Below, one piece after another: positions 52,735 through 64,000 of a stretch of 64,000 nucleotides of DNA; position 1 is the first letter of the stretch; each line of letters begins with the position of its first letter. The notes under the pieces are model-generated. The model had not been told where the DNA came from, did not search any database, and was given only the letters and a program-made list of their open reading frames with translations. This DNA comes from Caulifigura coniformis. Lineage in GTDB: Bacteria > Planctomycetota > Planctomycetia > Planctomycetales > Planctomycetaceae. The translations under genes and the position numbers were made by a program. The stretch lies in NCBI RefSeq assembly GCF_007745175.1, contig NZ_CP036271.1, forward strand, positions 3,856,314-3,920,313. Reading direction: 5' to 3'.

Positions 52735-53445
52735 ATGAACTACTCGCAGCTCGACCCGAACCTGATCGTCGCGACGGCTGAACAGCTCTGCCGTCGCGTT
52801 CGCGAACGCTTTCCCGTCGCCGGCCTGAACAACTGCAGCAACCAGCTGCTGGAGATCACGAAACAGGCCAAGGTCCGGGCGGCGGCGATCGGGGCTCCAA
52901 TGCGCTGGCTGCGGGTTCTGCTGGCCATCGCCGTGGCTGTGATCGTGGTGTTGTTCGTGTTGACGGCCAGGCAGGTGCGATTGCGGGACGCGGATCTCGA
53001 AGGGGGCCAGCTGATCCAGATTCTGGAGGCGGGATTCAACGCGACCGTCCTCGTCGGCGCGTTGATCGTCTTCCTGTTCACGATCGAGCTGCGGGTCAAA
53101 CGCCGCAGGGCATTGAAGGCTATCCACGAACTGCGGTCCCTGTCGCATATCATCGACATGCACCAGTTGACGAAAGACCCCGAGCGGATGCTGCAGAAAG
53201 GGGCCGATACCGAGTCGTCCCCGAAACGGACGATGACTCAATTCGAGCTGAGCCGCTATCTTGATTACTGCACGGAGATGCTGTCCCTGTGTGGAAAAGT
53301 GGCCGCCCTCTACGTGCAGAATTTTGAAGACGCCGACGCTGTCAGCGCCGTCAACGACCTCGAGGACCTGACTTCGGGCCTGACCCGCAAGATCTGGCAG
53401 AAAATCATGATCATCCACGCCGCCCGCGAGACGCAGCCGGCCTGA
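52735..53445 (+). CDS. Uncharacterised two-helix membrane protein
   Basis: A 236-aa protein with two predicted helices (about 61-81, LRVLLAIAVAVIVVLFVLTA, and about 98-117, FNATVLVGALIVFLFTIEL) joined by a short acidic loop. A cytosolic helical region with Arg/Lys-rich segments follows (RVKRRRALKAIHELRSLSHIID). I recognise no family. ATG 52735 is taken because AGGG precedes it; an in-frame stretch to 52594 is unsupported. The gene leads directly into the HEAT lipoprotein. Confidence 0.62.
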   Translation: MNYSQLDPNLIVATAEQLCRRVRERFPVAGLNNCSNQLLEITKQAKVRAAAIGAPMRWLRVLLAIAVAVIVVLFVLTARQVRLRDADLEGGQLIQILEAGFNATVLVGALIVFLFTIELRVKRRRALKAIHELRSLSHIIDMHQLTKDPERMLQKGADTESSPKRTMTQFELSRYLDYCTEMLSLCGKVAALYVQNFEDADAVSAVNDLEDLTSGLTRKIWQKIMIIHAARETQPA

Positions 53446-53468
53446 TGATCATCCGGAAAGGATTCCCT

Positions 53469-54356
53469 ATGCGTCACACTTCCGTTCAGCCGGTCCTGGT
53501 CGGGCTGGCCCTGCTGGCGGGATGCCAGAAGGCCGCTCCGGAACCGCCTGCCGCGACGTCGACGACCATTCCCGCCCCGACGCCGGAGGCCGCACCCGTT
53601 CCGGATCCGGTGGTTGTCGCGATGGGCGACGACATTCCCGCGCTCCCGCTGATTCCCGCAGGGCAGGTCATCGCCGATCTCCCTCCGGCCACTCCCCTGG
53701 GCGAATTGCCGCTGGCGATTGCGCCGGCCCAGGTTGCCGAGGAGATCAAGCCGGAACTTGCCGCCGCGTTCGAGAAGCTGTTTGAGCCCGGGCTCGAAGG
53801 CGACCAATGGGAAGCCGTGCACCTTTCGCTCGTGGAAGCCGGCGGCGATGCCGTTCCGGTTCTCAGGCAGGCGCTGGAATCGAAAGACGTCGCTCGCCGG
53901 GAGCAGGCGTCGTCGATTCTCTCTCTCCTGGGGGCGGTGGGTGAACCGGCGGTCCCCCAGCTGCTCAAGGGGCTGAAGGATGATTCGGCGTTCGTTCGCG
54001 CCACATCCGCCGCGGCCCTGGCCTCGTTTTCCGCCCATCAGGAAAAGGCAAAGACGACACTCCTCGAACTTCTCGATTCCAAGGACCCCGAATTGAGGCG
54101 CCTCGCGGCGACGAATCTTTCGATCCTCGGAGAATCGGCGTCCGACCTGGTCCCGCGTCTGACGCTCGCCCTCGACGATGCGGACAGCGAAGTCGTCCGG
54201 CCGATCGCGCAGCTTCTCGGCCAGATCGGCGGTCCCGCCCGGGCGGCCGTTCCCCGCCTGCAGCAGATCGCCTTCGAAAAGCAGGGGGAGGTGAAGGAAG
54301 CGGCGACGCTCGCCGTCGAGCTCATCGAAGGCAGGAGCGAAGCCACTTCGAAGTGA
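53469..54356 (+). CDS. HEAT-repeat lipoprotein
   Basis: A 295-aa lipoprotein with lipobox ALLAGC, a Pro-rich linker (about 20-70) and four to six HEAT-like repeats (about 120-290) such as LGAVGEPAVPQLLKGLKDDSAFVRATSAAALASF and DPELRRLAATNLSILGESASDLVPRLTLALDDADSEVVRPIAQLLGQIG. HEAT proteins form scaffolds. GGAAAGGA lies before ATG 53469. It starts 23 bases after the membrane protein, and 107 bases separate it from the GlmL-like gene, so the two genes may belong to the same transcription unit. Confidence 0.8.
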   Translation: MRHTSVQPVLVGLALLAGCQKAAPEPPAATSTTIPAPTPEAAPVPDPVVVAMGDDIPALPLIPAGQVIADLPPATPLGELPLAIAPAQVAEEIKPELAAAFEKLFEPGLEGDQWEAVHLSLVEAGGDAVPVLRQALESKDVARREQASSILSLLGAVGEPAVPQLLKGLKDDSAFVRATSAAALASFSAHQEKAKTTLLELLDSKDPELRRLAATNLSILGESASDLVPRLTLALDDADSEVVRPIAQLLGQIGGPARAAVPRLQQIAFEKQGEVKEAATLAVELIEGRSEATSK

Positions 54357-54463: not shown

Positions 54464-56287
54464 ATGCCGTTGCCCGCACCGGAAAACCTCAACGTCATCC
54501 TGGCGACTGACTGCGGCAGTACGACGACGAAGGCGATCCTGATTGAAAAGGTCGACGGGCATTTCCGGCAGACCTACCGCGGTGAAGCCCCGACCACCGT
54601 CGAAGAACCAGTGGCGGACGTCACCGTCGGCGTCACCAATGCAGCCACGGAAGTCGGCGAACTGGCCGGACGGCAGCTGGTGGATGAGAACGGCATCCTG
54701 ATCCGGCCCGCACAGGGAAACCGCGGCTGCGACATCTACATCTCCACGTCGTCAGCCGGCGGCGGTCTCCAGATGCTCGTCACCGGCGTCGTCCGGGAGA
54801 TGACGGCCGCAAGTGCGAAGAGAGCCGCACTCGGCGCCGGAGCGATCGTCATGGACGTTCTCGCCTCGAACGACAAGCGGAAACCTCACGAACAGATCCA
54901 GCGGATCCGGGAGCTGCGTCCGGACATGATGCTGATGTCCGGCGGCACCGACGGTGGAACGATTACGCATGTCGTGCAGACGGCCGAGTTGATTGCCCCG
55001 GCCCGGCCGCAGCCGCGTTTCGGCGGGCAGTATCGCATGCCGGTCATCTTCGCGGGCAACAAAGAGGCCGCGCCGCACGTCCAGAAAGTGCTGGGCGACG
55101 TCGTCGAGCTTTCGGTCGTCGAGAATCTCCGGCCGGTCCTGGAGCGTGAGAATCTGGCCCCCGCCCGCGACGCCATCCACGACCTGTTCCTCGAACATGT
55201 GATGGCCCACGCCCCTGGATACGACAAGCTGATCGCCTGGGCCGATGCTCCGATCATGCCGACCCCGGGAGCGGTCGGCGACATCCTCCAGCAGATCGCA
55301 CGTCAACGCGGCATCAACGTGGTCGGCGTCGACATCGGCGGAGCGACGACCGATGTCTTCAGCGTGTTTGCTGGCGAAGGGGGTCAGTCGGTCTTCAACC
55401 GCACCGTCTCCGCCAACCTGGGAATGAGCTATTCCGTCTCCAATGTCTGCTCGGAGGCCGGTTTCCCGAACATCCTGCGGTGGGTCCCGATCGATATGGA
55501 CGAGCGGGAACTGCGGAACCGCGTGAAGAACAAGATGATCCGCCCCACGACGATCCCGCAGACGCTGGAATCGCTGATCTTCGAGCAGGCGGTCTCGCGT
55601 GAGGCCCTGCGCCTGGCCTATCTCCAGCACTGCGAGTTCGCCACGACGCTCAAGGGCGTCCAGCAGCAGCGCTCGGTGGGCGATACCTTCGCCCAGCAGG
55701 GCGGGGGGGCCTCCGTCGTCGACAACATGAAGCTCGACCTCCTCGTCGCCTCCGGCGGAGTGTTGTCCCACGCGCCGCGGATGGAGCAGACGGCCGCAAT
55801 GCTCATCGATGCCTTCGAGCCGGAAGGCGTGACGGAACTCGCCAAGGACAGCATCTTCATGATGCCCCATCTCGGAGTGCTCGCGCAGGTGCATCCGCAG
55901 GCGGCGCTGGAAGTCTTCGAACGCGACTGCCTGATCTATCTCGGCACCTGCATCGCTGCGACCGGCGAGGGAAAGGAAGGCCGCGACTGTTTCCGGTATC
56001 GCCTCGAAGGAGGTGGACTGCGTGAAGAAGGAGAACTGAAATACGGCGACATCAGGCTTTTCCCGCTTCCCGGCGATGCGCGGACCAAAGCGACAATCAC
56101 CCCGGCGCGCGGCGTCGATGTCGGCGCGGGGCCCGGGAAGACCCTCGATCGCGAAGTCCGCGGCGGAACGGTCGGAATCATCCTCGACGCTCGCGGCCGG
56201 CCCCTGAAGCTGCCGGAAGATCGCCAGCGCTGCCGTGAAACGGCAAACCGCTGGCAACGCGAACTCCAGCTCTACCCCGAACTCTGA
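54464..56287 (+). CDS. GlmL/MutL-like ASKHA ATPase
   Basis: A 607-aa protein of the glutamate mutase L (MutL/GlmL) family with an actin-like ATPase fold. The phosphate loops DCGSTTTK (16-23) and VGVDIGGATTDVFSVF (about 287-302) and the adenosine loop LLVASGGVLSHAP (about 426-438) are clear. In known systems GlmL is an accessory protein of B12-dependent glutamate mutase and its relatives, but no mutase (MutE, MutS) is in this window, nor any B12-binding protein. The next two genes start within 32 bases and 8 bases, making an operon with a biotinyl-like protein and a DUF6754-type membrane protein. Function unknown. Confidence 0.82.
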   Translation: MPLPAPENLNVILATDCGSTTTKAILIEKVDGHFRQTYRGEAPTTVEEPVADVTVGVTNAATEVGELAGRQLVDENGILIRPAQGNRGCDIYISTSSAGGGLQMLVTGVVREMTAASAKRAALGAGAIVMDVLASNDKRKPHEQIQRIRELRPDMMLMSGGTDGGTITHVVQTAELIAPARPQPRFGGQYRMPVIFAGNKEAAPHVQKVLGDVVELSVVENLRPVLERENLAPARDAIHDLFLEHVMAHAPGYDKLIAWADAPIMPTPGAVGDILQQIARQRGINVVGVDIGGATTDVFSVFAGEGGQSVFNRTVSANLGMSYSVSNVCSEAGFPNILRWVPIDMDERELRNRVKNKMIRPTTIPQTLESLIFEQAVSREALRLAYLQHCEFATTLKGVQQQRSVGDTFAQQGGGASVVDNMKLDLLVASGGVLSHAPRMEQTAAMLIDAFEPEGVTELAKDSIFMMPHLGVLAQVHPQAALEVFERDCLIYLGTCIAATGEGKEGRDCFRYRLEGGGLREEGELKYGDIRLFPLPGDARTKATITPARGVDVGAGPGKTLDREVRGGTVGIILDARGRPLKLPEDRQRCRETANRWQRELQLYPEL

Positions 56288-56318
56288 GTCCGACTCACGA
56301 CCAGCGACCAACCAGGCA

Positions 56319-57446
56319 ATGGCCCACGCATACACCCCAGGATTGCTCGTCTCGCCCCGCATGCGGCTGCGTGTGCGCCGCGTCTTGCCGATCTCTGGCG
56401 AAGTGCTTGTCTCCCACGGAGAGAAAGTCGAGGCCCGGCAGGTCGTGGCCCGCACATTCATGCCGGGCGACGTCACCCCGGTGAACATCGCCAACCAGAT
56501 GTCGTTGTCCCCTTCCGAGGTGGCGGCAGCGATGCTCAAGAAGGTGGGTGACCCGGTCGCCAAAGGGGACGTTCTCGCCCGGTCCAAGGGCATGTTCGGC
56601 TTCTTCAAAACGGAGTTCGCCGCGCCGACCTCCGGAACGATCGAATCCATTTCGGACGTCACGGGCCAGGTGATGATTCGCGGCGCGGCGCTCCCCGTCC
56701 AGGTCCTCGCCTACGCCGGCGGAACAGTCGTCGAGGTCCTGCCTCAGGAAGGCGTGATTGTCGAGGCCGATGTGGCCTTCGCCCAGGGCGTGTTCGGTGT
56801 CGGCGGAGAGGCCTTCGGTGTTCTGAAAGTGGTCTGTGCGAACCCGTCCGAAGACCTCACGCCCGACAGAATCACCGCGGACTGCAAAAACGCGGTCATC
56901 GTCGGAGGCGCGCGCATTCACGAAGCCGCTGTCCGTCGTGCGGTCGAGGTGGGAGTTTCTGCGATCATCGCCGGGGGAATCGACGATGCCGACCTCAAGG
57001 CGATTCTCGGATACGACCTGGGCGTCGCCATCACGGGCTCCGAGAAAATCGGCCTCACGCTCATCATTACCGAAGGCTTCGGCGATATCGCGATGGCCGA
57101 CCGCACGTTCGCCCTCCTCAAGAAGCACGCCGGAGCTGACGTCTCGGTGAATGGAGCGACTCAGATCCGGGCCGGCGTCATGCGGCCCGAGATCGTCATT
57201 CCCGTGGCCGACTCTGCCAACGTCGGCTCGGTTCAGGAAGCCCACGGCGGAGGCTTTCTCGAGATCGGCTCGCAGGTCCGCATCATCCGCGATCCATACT
57301 TCGGCATCCTCGGAAAAGTGACGGCGCTCCCCCATCAGCCCACAGTCCTCGGCAGCGGTTCGTCGGCACGCGTGCTCGAAGTGGCCTGTGCCGACGGGAA
57401 AACCGTGACGGTCCCGCGGGCGAACGTCGAGATCACAGGAGGTTGA
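56319..57446 (+). CDS. Biotinyl/lipoyl-like plus KOW-like protein next to GlmL-like ATPase
   Basis: A 375-aa protein. The N-terminal third (about 20-130) has barrel-sandwich traits: GEVLVSHGEKVEARQVVA, KVGDPVAKGDVLARS and AAPTSGTIESISDVTGQV, like halves of a biotinyl/lipoyl domain with no clear Lys site. A middle region (about 135-300) has Rossmann-like segments (DCKNAVIVGGARIHEAAVRRAVEVGVSAIIAGGID). The C-terminus (about 315-372) reads EIGSQVRIIRDPYFGILGKVTALP, a KOW-like beta-barrel. It begins 32 bases after the GlmL-like stop. No enzyme activity can be assigned. Likely a soluble partner of the ATPase. Confidence 0.7.
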   Translation: MAHAYTPGLLVSPRMRLRVRRVLPISGEVLVSHGEKVEARQVVARTFMPGDVTPVNIANQMSLSPSEVAAAMLKKVGDPVAKGDVLARSKGMFGFFKTEFAAPTSGTIESISDVTGQVMIRGAALPVQVLAYAGGTVVEVLPQEGVIVEADVAFAQGVFGVGGEAFGVLKVVCANPSEDLTPDRITADCKNAVIVGGARIHEAAVRRAVEVGVSAIIAGGIDDADLKAILGYDLGVAITGSEKIGLTLIITEGFGDIAMADRTFALLKKHAGADVSVNGATQIRAGVMRPEIVIPVADSANVGSVQEAHGGGFLEIGSQVRIIRDPYFGILGKVTALPHQPTVLGSGSSARVLEVACADGKTVTVPRANVEITGG

Positions 57447-57453
57447 ATCGCCG

Positions 57454-58782
57454 ATGGCCAGTACTGAATCACCATCCATTTGCGTCGCGATGGAAACTCG
57501 CAGCGCACTCTCCTTGATCACCAGGAGCGGGTTTGCGGGCCGCCTCGTAATGGGGCTATGCCTTCTCCTCCTCGCAGCAACGGCTGACGCTGCTCCGCCC
57601 GCTCCCCCGAGATTCGTCTCCATCACCGATAAACCATTCGACAACGGCCACGCTCTCGTGGTCGTTCTCGACGTCGATCCCGAGCCCGCGGCCACGACCT
57701 GCATCCTGGAACGCTCCTTCGAACGAAAAGGGCTCTACGGCGAACCCCAGACGCTCGAGCGGCCGACGCCTGCCGAACCGATCCAGACGAGCGAACTCCC
57801 CTCGAATGCGGAAGTCGTCAAGCTGGTGACGCACATTGAAACTGAAGTCGGAGACCTGCCGACGGACAAACCGGTCTGGTTCCGGGCGTATGCCGTCAAC
57901 GCGGCCGGCGAGAAATCCGCATTCGTCTACAGCGACCAGCCCACCGTCGCGACCGAGCAGTTCTTCGACGGAAATCGATTCTGGTTCTTTGTCGTCACCG
58001 TCTTCGTCTGCGGTTCCGTGATTGCGATGATCCTCGTCGCCCGCACCGGGGCCCCGATGTGGATTCGCAAGATCAGCGCGCTGGACGCCATCGACGAAGC
58101 GGTCGGCCGGGCTACGGAAATGGGCAAGTCGTGCCTGTTCGTGGCCGGCGTCCAGGACCTGAACGAAATCGAAACCATCGCCGGCGTCACGGTTCTCTCG
58201 CGCGTCGCCGAAAAGGCCGCCGAATACGACGCCACCGTCGTGGTTCCCACCAGTCGCTCGCTGGTGATGACGGCTGCCCGGGAAACGTCGCAGGCCGCGT
58301 ATCTCGCGGCCGGGCGGCCCGACGCCTACCAGGAAGACCGCATCTACTACGTCACGGATGACCAGTTCGGCTTCGTGGCTCACCTCAGCGGCTACATGAT
58401 GCGCGAGAAGCCCGCCGCCTGCTTCTACATGGGGCAGTTCTACGCCGAGTCGCTGCTGCTCGGCGAAACCGGCAATACCATCGGAGCGATCCAGATCGCG
58501 GGAACCGCACAGCCGGCCCAGCTGCCGTTCTTCGTCGCCGCCTGCGACTACACCCTCATCGGTGAGGAATTCTTCGCCGCGTCCGCCTACCTGTCGCGCG
58601 ATCCCGACCAGCTGGGCAGCCTGAAAGGGCAGGACATCGGAAAGCTGCTCGTCATGTCGATCATCGTGATCGGAGTCTCCCTGCTCACCATCGTGAACCT
58701 CGCCCCCTCCGGCACCGCGGTTCACGATCTCGCCAGTGCGGCCGCCGACTACCTCCAGAATCACATGCTCACGTCGTCGTAA
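57454..58782 (+). CDS. DUF6754-type membrane protein
   Basis: A 442-aa protein with a signal peptide or first helix (about 30-47), a fibronectin-like exported domain (about 50-165, SITDKPFDNGHALVVVLDV to WFRAYAVNAAGEKS), a helix (about 174-197) and a cytosolic domain (AMWIRKISALDAIDEAVGRATEMGKSCLFVAGVQDL in part, then TVVVPTSRSLVMTAARE), with a final helix (about 397-418). This layout fits DUF6754 proteins. It lies 8 bases after the biotinyl-like gene, with GGAGG 11 nt before ATG 57454. The GlmL-like/biotinyl-like/DUF6754 trio probably works as a membrane-linked ATP-driven unit (inference). Confidence 0.75.
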   Translation: MASTESPSICVAMETRSALSLITRSGFAGRLVMGLCLLLLAATADAAPPAPPRFVSITDKPFDNGHALVVVLDVDPEPAATTCILERSFERKGLYGEPQTLERPTPAEPIQTSELPSNAEVVKLVTHIETEVGDLPTDKPVWFRAYAVNAAGEKSAFVYSDQPTVATEQFFDGNRFWFFVVTVFVCGSVIAMILVARTGAPMWIRKISALDAIDEAVGRATEMGKSCLFVAGVQDLNEIETIAGVTVLSRVAEKAAEYDATVVVPTSRSLVMTAARETSQAAYLAAGRPDAYQEDRIYYVTDDQFGFVAHLSGYMMREKPAACFYMGQFYAESLLLGETGNTIGAIQIAGTAQPAQLPFFVAACDYTLIGEEFFAASAYLSRDPDQLGSLKGQDIGKLLVMSIIVIGVSLLTIVNLAPSGTAVHDLASAAADYLQNHMLTSS

Positions 58783-61752: not shown

Positions 61753-62334
61753 CTACAGAGACAGGAAGTTCTCCAGCAGCTTGATTCCCTGGGGAGTCAG
61801 GAAGCTCTCCGGGTGGAACTGCACGCCGTGGACCGGATATGTCCGGTGCCTGAGCGCCATGATCTCCGGTGGGTGGTCGGCATCCCGAGTCCATCCCACG
61901 GCCAGCAGGTCGGGCGTCAAAGTCTCTTCCGGAACCACCAGACTGTGGTAACGCGTCGCCTGCATGGGGCTCTCGATCCCCCGAAACACCCCCTGGCCGT
62001 CGTGATGAATCATCGACGTCTTGCCGTGCATCAGCCGCTTGGCACGGAGCACCTTCGCTCCATAAACCTCGGCCATGCATTGATGGCCCAGGCAGACTCC
62101 GAATACCGGCAGCTTCGGCCCGAAGTGTTCGATCACCGCCTTCGAGATTCCCGCCTCGCCGGGAGAGCAGGGGCCCGGAGAAACGATGATCCGCTCCGGT
62201 TTCAGCTTTTCGATTTCGCTGATGGAAATCTGGTCGTTTCGTGCGACCTGGATGTCGAGCGCGGAGTCGATTTCCCCCAGTCGCTGGACGAGGTTGTACG
62301 TGAACGAATCGTAGTTATCGAGAACGAAGATCAT
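61753..62334 (-). CDS. pabA: Anthranilate/aminodeoxychorismate synthase component II (glutamine amidotransferase)
   Basis: A 193-aa class I glutamine amidotransferase that supplies ammonia to the chorismate-using partner, for tryptophan or folate synthesis. The oxyanion loop SPGPCSPGEAG (52-62), the nucleophile C81 in VCLGHQ and the base pair H174 and E176 in FHPESF are present. The name pabA or trpG cannot be separated by sequence alone; no trpE or pabB lies in the window. Its ATG sits inside the end of the transglutaminase-like gene (20-base overlap), so the two are co-transcribed, although a functional tie is not obvious. Confidence 0.92.
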   Translation of the reverse strand: MIFVLDNYDSFTYNLVQRLGEIDSALDIQVARNDQISISEIEKLKPERIIVSPGPCSPGEAGISKAVIEHFGPKLPVFGVCLGHQCMAEVYGAKVLRAKRLMHGKTSMIHHDGQGVFRGIESPMQATRYHSLVVPEETLTPDLLAVGWTRDADHPPEIMALRHRTYPVHGVQFHPESFLTPQGIKLLENFLSL

Positions 62335-64000
62335 GGCTGTCGGAGTTTACGGAGGTGCGGGAAGAAAGACAGGCTTCCAGTCGCCACAGCCGCCGTTCCA
62401 GTCGATCCTCGTCAACGGTGGAAAGTTTCTCGCCGCCGAATCGGACACGGTAAAACTCGTCCGACACCGTCCCCGGCAACTCGGTCAGGCCGGCTTCATC
62501 GAGCTGCCGGCCCAGCATCCGCTTCACGGTCTGCCCGAATTCCTGCGCCGTCTGTGACCGCTCCGGCGCCAGGCCTGCCCGATCGACGATCTTCTTGAAC
62601 CGATTGTAGAAGGCAACCTCGGGGCCGGAGTGCTCACCGCGGGTTTTGAGGCCTCCGAGCGACCCGATCCTGTAGATCAGGCGTGAGAGCAGTTTGTAGA
62701 GAATGGCCATCGTCGTCAGCAGGACGAACGCCGTCAGGCCGCCTCTCCAGCTGATCCACTGGTCAGGATTGCGGATCGTCTCCAGCGCGCCGGCCCAGAC
62801 CGTCTCAAACTTGGCCTTCAGGTCGATCACGCGCTGCCAGCTCCGCTGGCCAAGCCGCTGGATCGGCAGGTACACCTGCTCGCGCTGCTGCTGGCTGTTC
62901 ATCCCGATGCCCGTCAGCCACAACCGCACCGCCACGTCCTTGGCGAACGCCCACGTCGATTGCGTCTGGCCGGCTGCTACCTTGGCCGTCTTGTCGCGGA
63001 TGGCCGGAGTCGGATCGAACGTCACCCATCGATTGTAGATCCGCGCCTCGGTCCACGCGTGGGCAAAACGTTGCTGAATGTAGAACGTCCCGGTCGCCCC
63101 TTCGAAATTGCCCCCCTTGAAGCCGGTGACGAGCCGGGAGGGGATGTCGGCCGCGCGAAACATCAGCGCCAGCGCCGACGCGAAATACTCGCAGTGCCCC
63201 TTTTTCCGGTTGACCAGGAAGTCTTCGATCGGATCGACCCGCGAATTGTCCACCGCTGCCTTCGTCGTGTACTCAAACCGGCCGCTGTCACGCAGGTAGT
63301 GCAGAATCGCGTTCGCCTTCATCTCGTCGTCCTCCGCCGCGGAGGCGGGCAGGGTGGCCAGGATCTCTTTGGTGATCCGCCGAAGCTCCACAAGGTCTTC
63401 CGGCACCTGCAGGAGTTGTTCGTTGTACCGGACGTTGTTGGCGCCGAAGAAGGGCAGGCCGCGGCCAAGAATGTACGTCGGGTCGTACTCCAGCTCTTCC
63501 GCGTCATGCAGGCTGTAGACCTGATAGGAATAGCTGTCGTAGACCGATTCATCCTGCCGCGAATACTCGTTCGTCTGCTGGCGTCGGTAGATCTCGTTAC
63601 CTTCGAGAGGCCCGTCGCACGTCACCACCTGGCCGACCGTGAACAGCGTCGCGGAGTTGCTGGAATTCAGGCGGATGTCGACGCGCACGAGCTTCTCATC
63701 GGGCCGCGGCATCGAGCAGGCGTCCCCCCGCGACCGGAGCACCGGGTCCCATCGGCCCCGCGTGTAATCCTCGAGCGTCCTGGCTCGAAACAGTGGATCC
63801 TCGCCCAGCCAGGCTTTGGCCTTCACGGTGTTCATCCGGCGATTGGACGGGTATTCGAAGAAGTTGGCCGTGAGGGCAACGTCGTTGCTGGCCATGATCT
63901 CCCCGATATCCCCCAGTCGCACCCGTTCCGTGAAGCCGGCGATTCGATCGCCTGCCAGCGCCGTATCGTCGAACAGCCGCAGGCGACTCATCCACACCCG
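62315..64000 (-). CDS. Transglutaminase-domain membrane protein, 5'-truncated by the window
   Basis: The visible C-terminal 560 residues resemble TgpA/DUF3488 proteins; the start and upstream helices lie beyond the window. A transglutaminase core has its Cys in KKGHCEYFASALALMFRAADIPSRLVTGF, His in FAHAWTEARI and Asp in VTFDPTPA. Two helices follow (about position 420-440 of the visible part, WRGGLTAFVLLTTMAILYKL) and a DUF4129-like cytosolic end (RAGLAPERSQTAQEFGQTVKRMLG). Such proteins are thought to act on peptide or protein substrates at the envelope. It overlaps pabA by 20 bases. Confidence 0.85.
   Translation of the reverse strand, partial: RVWMSRLRLFDDTALAGDRIAGFTERVRLGDIGEIMASNDVALTANFFEYPSNRRMNTVKAKAWLGEDPLFRARTLEDYTRGRWDPVLRSRGDACSMPRPDEKLVRVDIRLNSSNSATLFTVGQVVTCDGPLEGNEIYRRQQTNEYSRQDESVYDSYSYQVYSLHDAEELEYDPTYILGRGLPFFGANNVRYNEQLLQVPEDLVELRRITKEILATLPASAAEDDEMKANAILHYLRDSGRFEYTTKAAVDNSRVDPIEDFLVNRKKGHCEYFASALALMFRAADIPSRLVTGFKGGNFEGATGTFYIQQRFAHAWTEARIYNRWVTFDPTPAIRDKTAKVAAGQTQSTWAFAKDVAVRLWLTGIGMNSQQQREQVYLPIQRLGQRSWQRVIDLKAKFETVWAGALETIRNPDQWISWRGGLTAFVLLTTMAILYKLLSRLIYRIGSLGGLKTRGEHSGPEVAFYNRFKKIVDRAGLAPERSQTAQEFGQTVKRMLGRQLDEAGLTELPGTVSDEFYRVRFGGEKLSTVDEDRLERRLWRLEACLSSRTSVNSDSHDLRSR

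Follow-up and report, generated by a model that had tools for sequence, protein, structure and literature searches.

A GlmL-related ATPase, a barrel-sandwich protein and a DUF6754 membrane protein as members of a seven-family gene set in Planctomycetota and other bacteria

Within a 64,000-nucleotide stretch of the chromosome of Caulifigura coniformis (Planctomycetota; contig NZ_CP036271.1, positions 3,856,314 to 3,920,313; hereafter the window), three consecutive genes encode a GlmL/MutL-family ATPase (L), a barrel-sandwich/KOW-like protein (B) and a membrane protein of the DUF6754 family (D). These genes recur with four further families, which we label S, M1, R and M2, in a cassette whose full order is S-L-B-D-M1-R-M2. 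No described function was found for this seven-protein set, which is carried by many unrelated bacterial groups. We hypothesize, with a probability of about 0.42, that these three genes supply the L-B-D portion of an inner-membrane system of seven components, driven by L. The hypothesis is built on the gene set and its order, its co-inheritance across the phylum, its joint absence from a close relative, intact ATPase motifs in L, and the predicted folds of D and R.

Composition and inheritance of the cassette

The strongest evidence for one joint function is that the set is scattered in some genomes and nevertheless kept in full, and jointly absent from one relative, because adjacency cannot explain the retention of genes that are not adjacent. 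The window genome (G000, a single 6.76-Mb contig) carries all seven families at three places, as S, L-B-D and M1-R-M2 (Table 1), and the same three groups lie on three contigs of its genus mate (G087, a draft of ~50 contigs). A further genome, G024, has them in six places (S at 119066, D-B at 293751-296032, L at 793480, M2 at 2302692, M1 at 3478579 and R at 3526199), and in six other members of the window's family (G048, G069, G167, G205, G216 and G227) all seven are adjacent. Every one of the seven is present in the same 11 of the 12 genomes of this family; the twelfth, G137, has none of them, for which loss is the simplest reading.

Co-inheritance extends to the phylum. Profile counts over one set of 245 Planctomycetota genomes gave D in 61, R in 62, B in 58 and PF13941, the Pfam family of L, in 68. 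D and R occur together in 61 genomes, D never without R, and R only once without D. All four families are found in 54 genomes and none of them in 172; among the 19 partial genomes, nine have a PF13941 match alone, and some of these matches are weak.

The order of the genes was observed in two samples. Regions around D were fetched from 20 genomes of the phylum and their conserved frames labelled, and over these regions the seven families recur in the order S-L-B-D-M1-R-M2, although not all of them in each. A contig scan with D as query returned at least 577 confirmed relatives, of which the best 80 were kept as named loci, a sample that leans towards the planctomycete query. The cassette genes found share one strand in all 80. 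Where at least 2.5 kb follow a gene, S is followed within 1.5 kb by L in 35 of 35 cases, L by B in 39 of 39, B by D in 42 of 49, D by M1 in 74 of 75, M1 by R in 71 of 72 and R by M2 in 67 of 68, the steps at D being conditional on the loci having been fetched via D. Carriers include Planctomycetota (anammox genera among them), Latescibacterota, Gemmatimonadota, Nitrospirae/Nitrospira, Elusimicrobia, WOR-3/Stahlbacteria, Zixiibacteriota, Poribacteria, Edwardsbacteria, Methylomirabilis, BRC1, TA06 and others.

The putative cytosolic part and the membrane part of the cassette may be separated or differ in number. Seventeen named loci are without L and B in the 5 kb or more before their first cassette gene (55 named loci have at least 5 kb before D), and in each of the 17 genomes with no B at its D locus, B was located at another place. 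Two or three D-M1-R-M2 blocks are present in five of the 80 named loci. Among the 20 phylum regions such tandem blocks occur in L036, L040, L043, L044 and L045, the last four with a single L-B set upstream of the two or three blocks. In a further locus, L119, B stands ahead of three.

In the window itself the three genes lie at the positions given by an earlier sequence-only reading and are as tightly spaced as it described, with gaps of 31 (L-B) and 7 (B-D) bases in place of its 32 and 8. The mechanical open reading frame of B opens at a GTG at 56235; the family start M-A-H-x-Y-T-P-G-L sits at 56319, with P7, G8 and L9 invariant in 37 of 37 aligned B proteins (M1 of B is also constant, the remaining rows having been trimmed to a methionine). 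Since L, B and D each recur over the phylum, the trio is not a chance association. That reading had proposed the trio as an operon of its own; it comprises three of seven parts, S and M1-R-M2 being encoded elsewhere in the chromosome.

Table 1. Location of the seven families in the genome of C. coniformis. L, B and D are numbered from the first base of the window, the other rows on the chromosome (G000, contig C1); TM, transmembrane helix.
Gene	Position	Strand	Length	Predicted features
L	54464..56287	+	607 aa	PF13941 MutL, 433 bits over residues 12-489
B	56319..57446	+	375 aa	soluble; RnfC/NqrA-like barrel-sandwich, middle part of unknown family, KOW/SH3-like C-terminus
D	57454..58782	+	442 aa	signal peptide, exported FN3-like domain, TM, cytosolic DUF6754 Rossmann-like domain, TM
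L-B-D	3.91 Mb			
S	2650791-2651111			
M2	5866766-5867479			flanks R
R	5867638-5868507			
M1	5868517-5870325			flanks R

The ATPase L and its partner B

Assignment of L to the GlmL/MutL family, already proposed from the sequence of the window, is borne out by a Pfam MutL (PF13941) score of 433 bits against a cut-off of 27; L is the one PF13941 match in the window genome, and ~118 residues at its C-terminus extend past the Pfam domain. Three nucleotide-site motifs, DCGSTTTK, DIGGATTD and SGG, which we take to be the phosphate and adenosine motifs of the ASKHA superfamily, show no variation across all 16 aligned L proteins, and L is probably an actin-fold (ASKHA) ATPase. A sequence search of solved structures with L gave nothing useful. 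L shares its Pfam family and ASKHA-type motifs with the GlmL/MutL accessory protein of glutamate (methylaspartate) mutase, a probable assembly/reactivation chaperone for that enzyme, and with the GlmL-related ornithine degradation protein Or-4. It differs from both in its C-terminal extension, in its partners, which are B, S and four membrane proteins rather than mutase subunits, and in falling under both NCBIfam GlmL cut-offs (236.9 against 475 for the equivalog model NF040745, and 164.5 against 204 for the subfamily model TIGR01319). The L protein of locus L053 scores almost identically (236.6 and 163.4 bits). Two stand-alone homologues, L181 and L182, clear TIGR01319 with 273 and 403 bits and stay under the equivalog cut-off with 362 and 436. 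Strictly speaking, L is a distant relative of GlmL and not GlmL itself.

Membership in Pfam MutL could suggest that a B12-dependent mutase, encoded elsewhere, has the trio as its usual accessory set. No such partner was found in the window genome by a search with the B12-binding family PF02310 (PF01642 and PF06368 were not themselves searched), which returned two matches, one above its cut-off in a 1250-aa frame and one below it in a 689-aa frame. To judge from size, these are probably MetH and a radical-SAM-type protein; neither match sits in a frame sized like a small mutase subunit. The genes neighbouring L are cassette genes, no mutase genes accompany the three co-located families in their stretches, as the sequence-only reading expected of an independent system, and the constant partners include four membrane proteins. 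Together with the subfamily score of L, which the stand-alone homologues exceed, this leaves a mutase accessory set extremely unlikely.

The barrel-sandwich part of B is upheld by Pfam Biotin_lipoyl (25.6 bits, cut-off 22.1); RnfC_N (24.3 against 25.6), KOW (14.8 against 22.3) and NQRA_N (18.3 against 25) remain below their cut-offs. Among 37 members of the B family, at E<=0.1, RnfC_N is matched by 33, Biotin_lipoyl by 25, KOW by 13 and NQRA_N by 12. Searched by sequence against solved structures, B gave weak matches to KOW/SPT5 (E 0.015) and RraA (E 0.069). The earlier description of B as biotinyl holds for the fold only: over residues 68-125 of the 37 proteins, where the attachment lysine would be expected to lie, no lysine column is invariant (K74 is the best at 34 of 37, followed by positions 75, 94 and 97 at 28 of 37 each), so that covalent biotin or lipoyl is unlikely. 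Biotinylation was rejected on this lysine conservation around the hairpin.

The weak family matches to the N-terminal barrel-sandwich domains of RnfC and NqrA cover residues 68-116 of B and raise the alternative of an Rnf/Nqr-like, redox-linked ion pump in which B would take the role of RnfC/NqrA. Beyond this domain, B has instead the middle part of unknown family and the KOW-like part. No Rnf/Nqr family is found among the scanned S, M1, R and M2 proteins, no cysteine of B is conserved at 90%, and an ATPase would be out of place in such a pump, which makes this a very improbable reading.

Divergent paralogues of L and B are fused in a single 839-codon frame on two contigs of genome G169 (L176:9275-11794, minus strand, and L177:10298-12817, plus strand), and this single frame supports direct contact between L and B. 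In two other genomes the pair is split into two frames (L178:9891-12832 and L179:1995-5017). None of these four stretches has a match to D, M1, R or M2, and the paralogues possibly represent a sister system.

The membrane proteins and a proposed machine

D scores 409 bits against a cut-off of 27 for DUF6754 (PF20539) over residues 167-414, and its exported part matches titin FN3 modules by profile (E 1.8e-13), in agreement with its earlier description as a DUF6754 protein with an exported fibronectin-like part. DUF6754 is a family without assigned function, here placed in a seven-part system. A sequence search of solved structures gave matches confined to the N-terminal FN3-like part for D and nothing useful for R, M1 or M2. 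The AlphaFold2 model of D has a mean predicted local distance difference test (pLDDT) of 84.7, with block means of 88-98 over residues 201-400, and that of R has a pLDDT of 92.8 and a predicted template-modelling score (pTM) of 0.87. In each model a domain of the order H-E-H-E-H-E-H-E-H-E-H-E-H (helix H, strand E; an extra short helix of R is omitted from this comparison) lies between two transmembrane helices. From hydropathy and charge bias, the domain of D is placed in the cytosol (+4.5 after its transmembrane helix) and that of R in the periplasm (N flank +2.0, C flank +3.2).

S is a protein of ~130 aa, M1 and M2 are polytopic, and R has one transmembrane helix at either end. Neither Pfam nor NCBIfam gives S, M1, R or M2 a name; Pfam matches of M1, M2 and R are weak and scattered, most often TMD0_ABC in 5 of 29 M1 proteins (best E 0.0039), DUF3704 in 9 of 27 M2 proteins (best 0.0092) and DUF2249 in 3 of 47 R proteins (best E 0.0039), and one M1 member matches DUF998 (E 7.7e-5). 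Profile comparison among the seven families gave nothing in 21 pairs. In genomes with a split cassette M1 has an insertion between its third and fourth transmembrane regions, of ~380 aa in the window genome, which is seen in L151:10412-12280 (minus strand) and also in G087, G024, G121 and G181, that is, in the window's genus and a sister genus.

We hypothesize that L as actin-fold ATPase, B as adaptor and the small S form one cytosolic unit, which would dock to D at its DUF6754 domain in the cytosol. The membrane unit, with an exported FN3 arm, would consist of D, M1, R and M2; in it, the Rossmann-like domain of D is on the cytosolic face and that of R, with the same secondary-structure order, on the periplasmic face. 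Binding and hydrolysis of ATP by L would switch the membrane unit between states, and a substrate or signal would thereby be moved or gated across the inner membrane. As some genomes hold two or three tandem copies of D-M1-R-M2, a single L-B unit may work for more than one membrane unit, and the copies may be alternative units or parts of hetero-oligomers. The set looks like an independent ATPase system linked to the membrane, as was suggested from the window alone. It is rather doubtful, if tempting to speculate, that this would be a previously undescribed type of primary active machine of the inner membrane, powered by an ASKHA ATPase rather than an ABC, AAA or P-type ATPase and with a core of two opposed Rossmann-domain proteins and two polytopic proteins.

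Several points weigh against the L-driven machine. Docking, coupling and transport as such are what we infer for it, and a function of the set, its assembly into a complex and ATPase activity would likewise be predictions from sequence. Homology of D and R finds no support in profile alignment (hhalign probability 0.7 of 100), and their kinship would be a guess from secondary-structure order. Foldseek returned no close solved fold for either model, the best matches being at E 2e-3 for D, with sugar-isomerase and FN3 types among them, and at E 9e-4 for R, of generic Rossmann types. Co-inheritance also has exceptions: G153 (99% complete), from a family with named Brocadiaceae-type relatives, has S-L-B (L185) and no match to D or R, through either an assembly gap or a real exception, and five genomes (G014, G037, G041, G050 and G145; 76-95% complete, 1-8% contaminated) have D and R and no PF13941 match.

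The main rival is a chaperone role, in which L-B-S would load, repair or open an enzyme or channel formed by D-M1-R-M2, and ATP would not be spent on a transport step. The distant kinship of L with GlmL is in keeping with it, and a service module would fit both the single L-B set, or B in L119, ahead of several membrane blocks and the fact that L-B may sit far from the membrane block. Against this, the PF02310 search of the genome found no B12 enzyme or other known client, no cofactor motif was recognised in D or R, of which only D has a cysteine position (one) conserved at 90% or more, and a motor fits the same data equally well. We regard the chaperone role as unlikely, and retain the L-driven membrane system as the preferred reading.

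Neighbouring genes and significance

No flank of the cassette is generally conserved between phyla. Of 144 loci with L, B, D or R, a total that includes overlapping fetches of one place and some short stretches, 14 have genes of Opp/Yej-type ATP-binding cassette (ABC) transporters next to or within the cassette and on its strand (L035, L043, L044, L061, L062, L064, L065, L069, L070, L072, L076, L109, L122 and L127). Opp-type models were matched in 21 loci, seven of which were set aside: in L039, L107 and L114 the match is on the other strand, in L124 it lies 3.7 kb off, in L166 and L185 it looks by eye like the polysaccharide-export type, and L137 covers the place already counted as L035. The 14 loci belong to Elusimicrobia, Latescibacterota, Gemmatimonadota, Anammoxibacter, BRC1 and other Planctomycetota, including the window's family (L035). 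In L109, L122 and L127 the ABC operon lies between B and D, and Pfam confirms the ABC families for ten proteins of L122, L035, L044, L043 and L069. The nearest NCBIfam models of the two L122 permeases, below cut-off, are microcin C (Yej) transporter permeases. In Agrobacterium, muropeptide recycling is served by YejBEF-YepA, according to PMC9790009.

These neighbours could mean that the cassette assists or energises ABC importers of the peptide type (Opp/Dpp/Yej), and both would be ATP-driven inner-membrane systems. The cassette families, however, include no ABC ATPase, binding-protein-dependent permease or substrate-binding protein, and no same-strand Opp-type neighbour was counted in the other 130 of the 144 loci. 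Within the window's family, the Opp-type ATPase of L035 (genome G205) has no match at E<=1e-60 in cassette-positive G000 or G087; it is matched in cassette-negative G137, G105, G152 and G194, which have no D or R. An obligate Opp/Dpp partner is thus ruled out in this family, where co-inheritance with the cassette is lacking, for the one ATPase tested (permease and substrate-binding protein were not), and an ABC accessory role is improbable. In light of this distribution, the Opp/Yej neighbourhood is at most a lead on physiology, and a weak one, hinting at a peptide- or envelope-related substrate.

Other neighbours are bound to particular lineages. Of 115 scanned neighbours, 16 match Memo; many Nitrospira-type loci among L080-L129 have a Memo-like gene after M2, and a large flank cluster, read by eye as Memo, spans 19 Nitrospira-type loci. 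Upstream of S, six Nitrospira loci have a PlsY-like gene and five a PgsA-like gene (both named by eye), and a PgpA-like gene (by eye) adjoins M1 in L151 and L152 only; as clues these three are too lineage-bound to use. In one sister genus (L034:14732-17289, minus strand, and L170-L172) an intact cassette follows, on the same strand, TatD, two ExbD-like genes and one ExbB-like gene; the Exb names were given by eye, and TatD is matched by 4 of the 115 neighbours. Upstream of L in the window (52735-54353) are genes for a small transmembrane protein, without a Pfam family, and a HEAT-repeat lipoprotein, which had been suggested to extend the operon; they are matched in only one of the 20 fetched regions, that of same-genus G087, and were therefore taken as neighbours, not parts. 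Near the end of the window, on the minus strand, a glutamine-amidotransferase-like gene (pabA/trpG type, by eye; 61753-62334) shares 20 bases with the end of the gene for a transglutaminase-like protein (by eye; 62315-63997).

The open-access literature, to which coverage was confined (subscription papers and preprints lay outside it), contained no mention of DUF6754, PF20539 or PF13941, and searches of it brought up nothing on the system. Four of the seven families are nameless in Pfam and NCBIfam. DUF6754 and a divergent branch of GlmL thereby gain a system-level context. The question is now directly testable: the seven genes are defined, a close relative lacks them all, and some genomes carry the set split. 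Kept over some ten or more named phyla and candidate phyla, the nitrifiers of Nitrospira and the anammox bacteria included, the set should do something basic.

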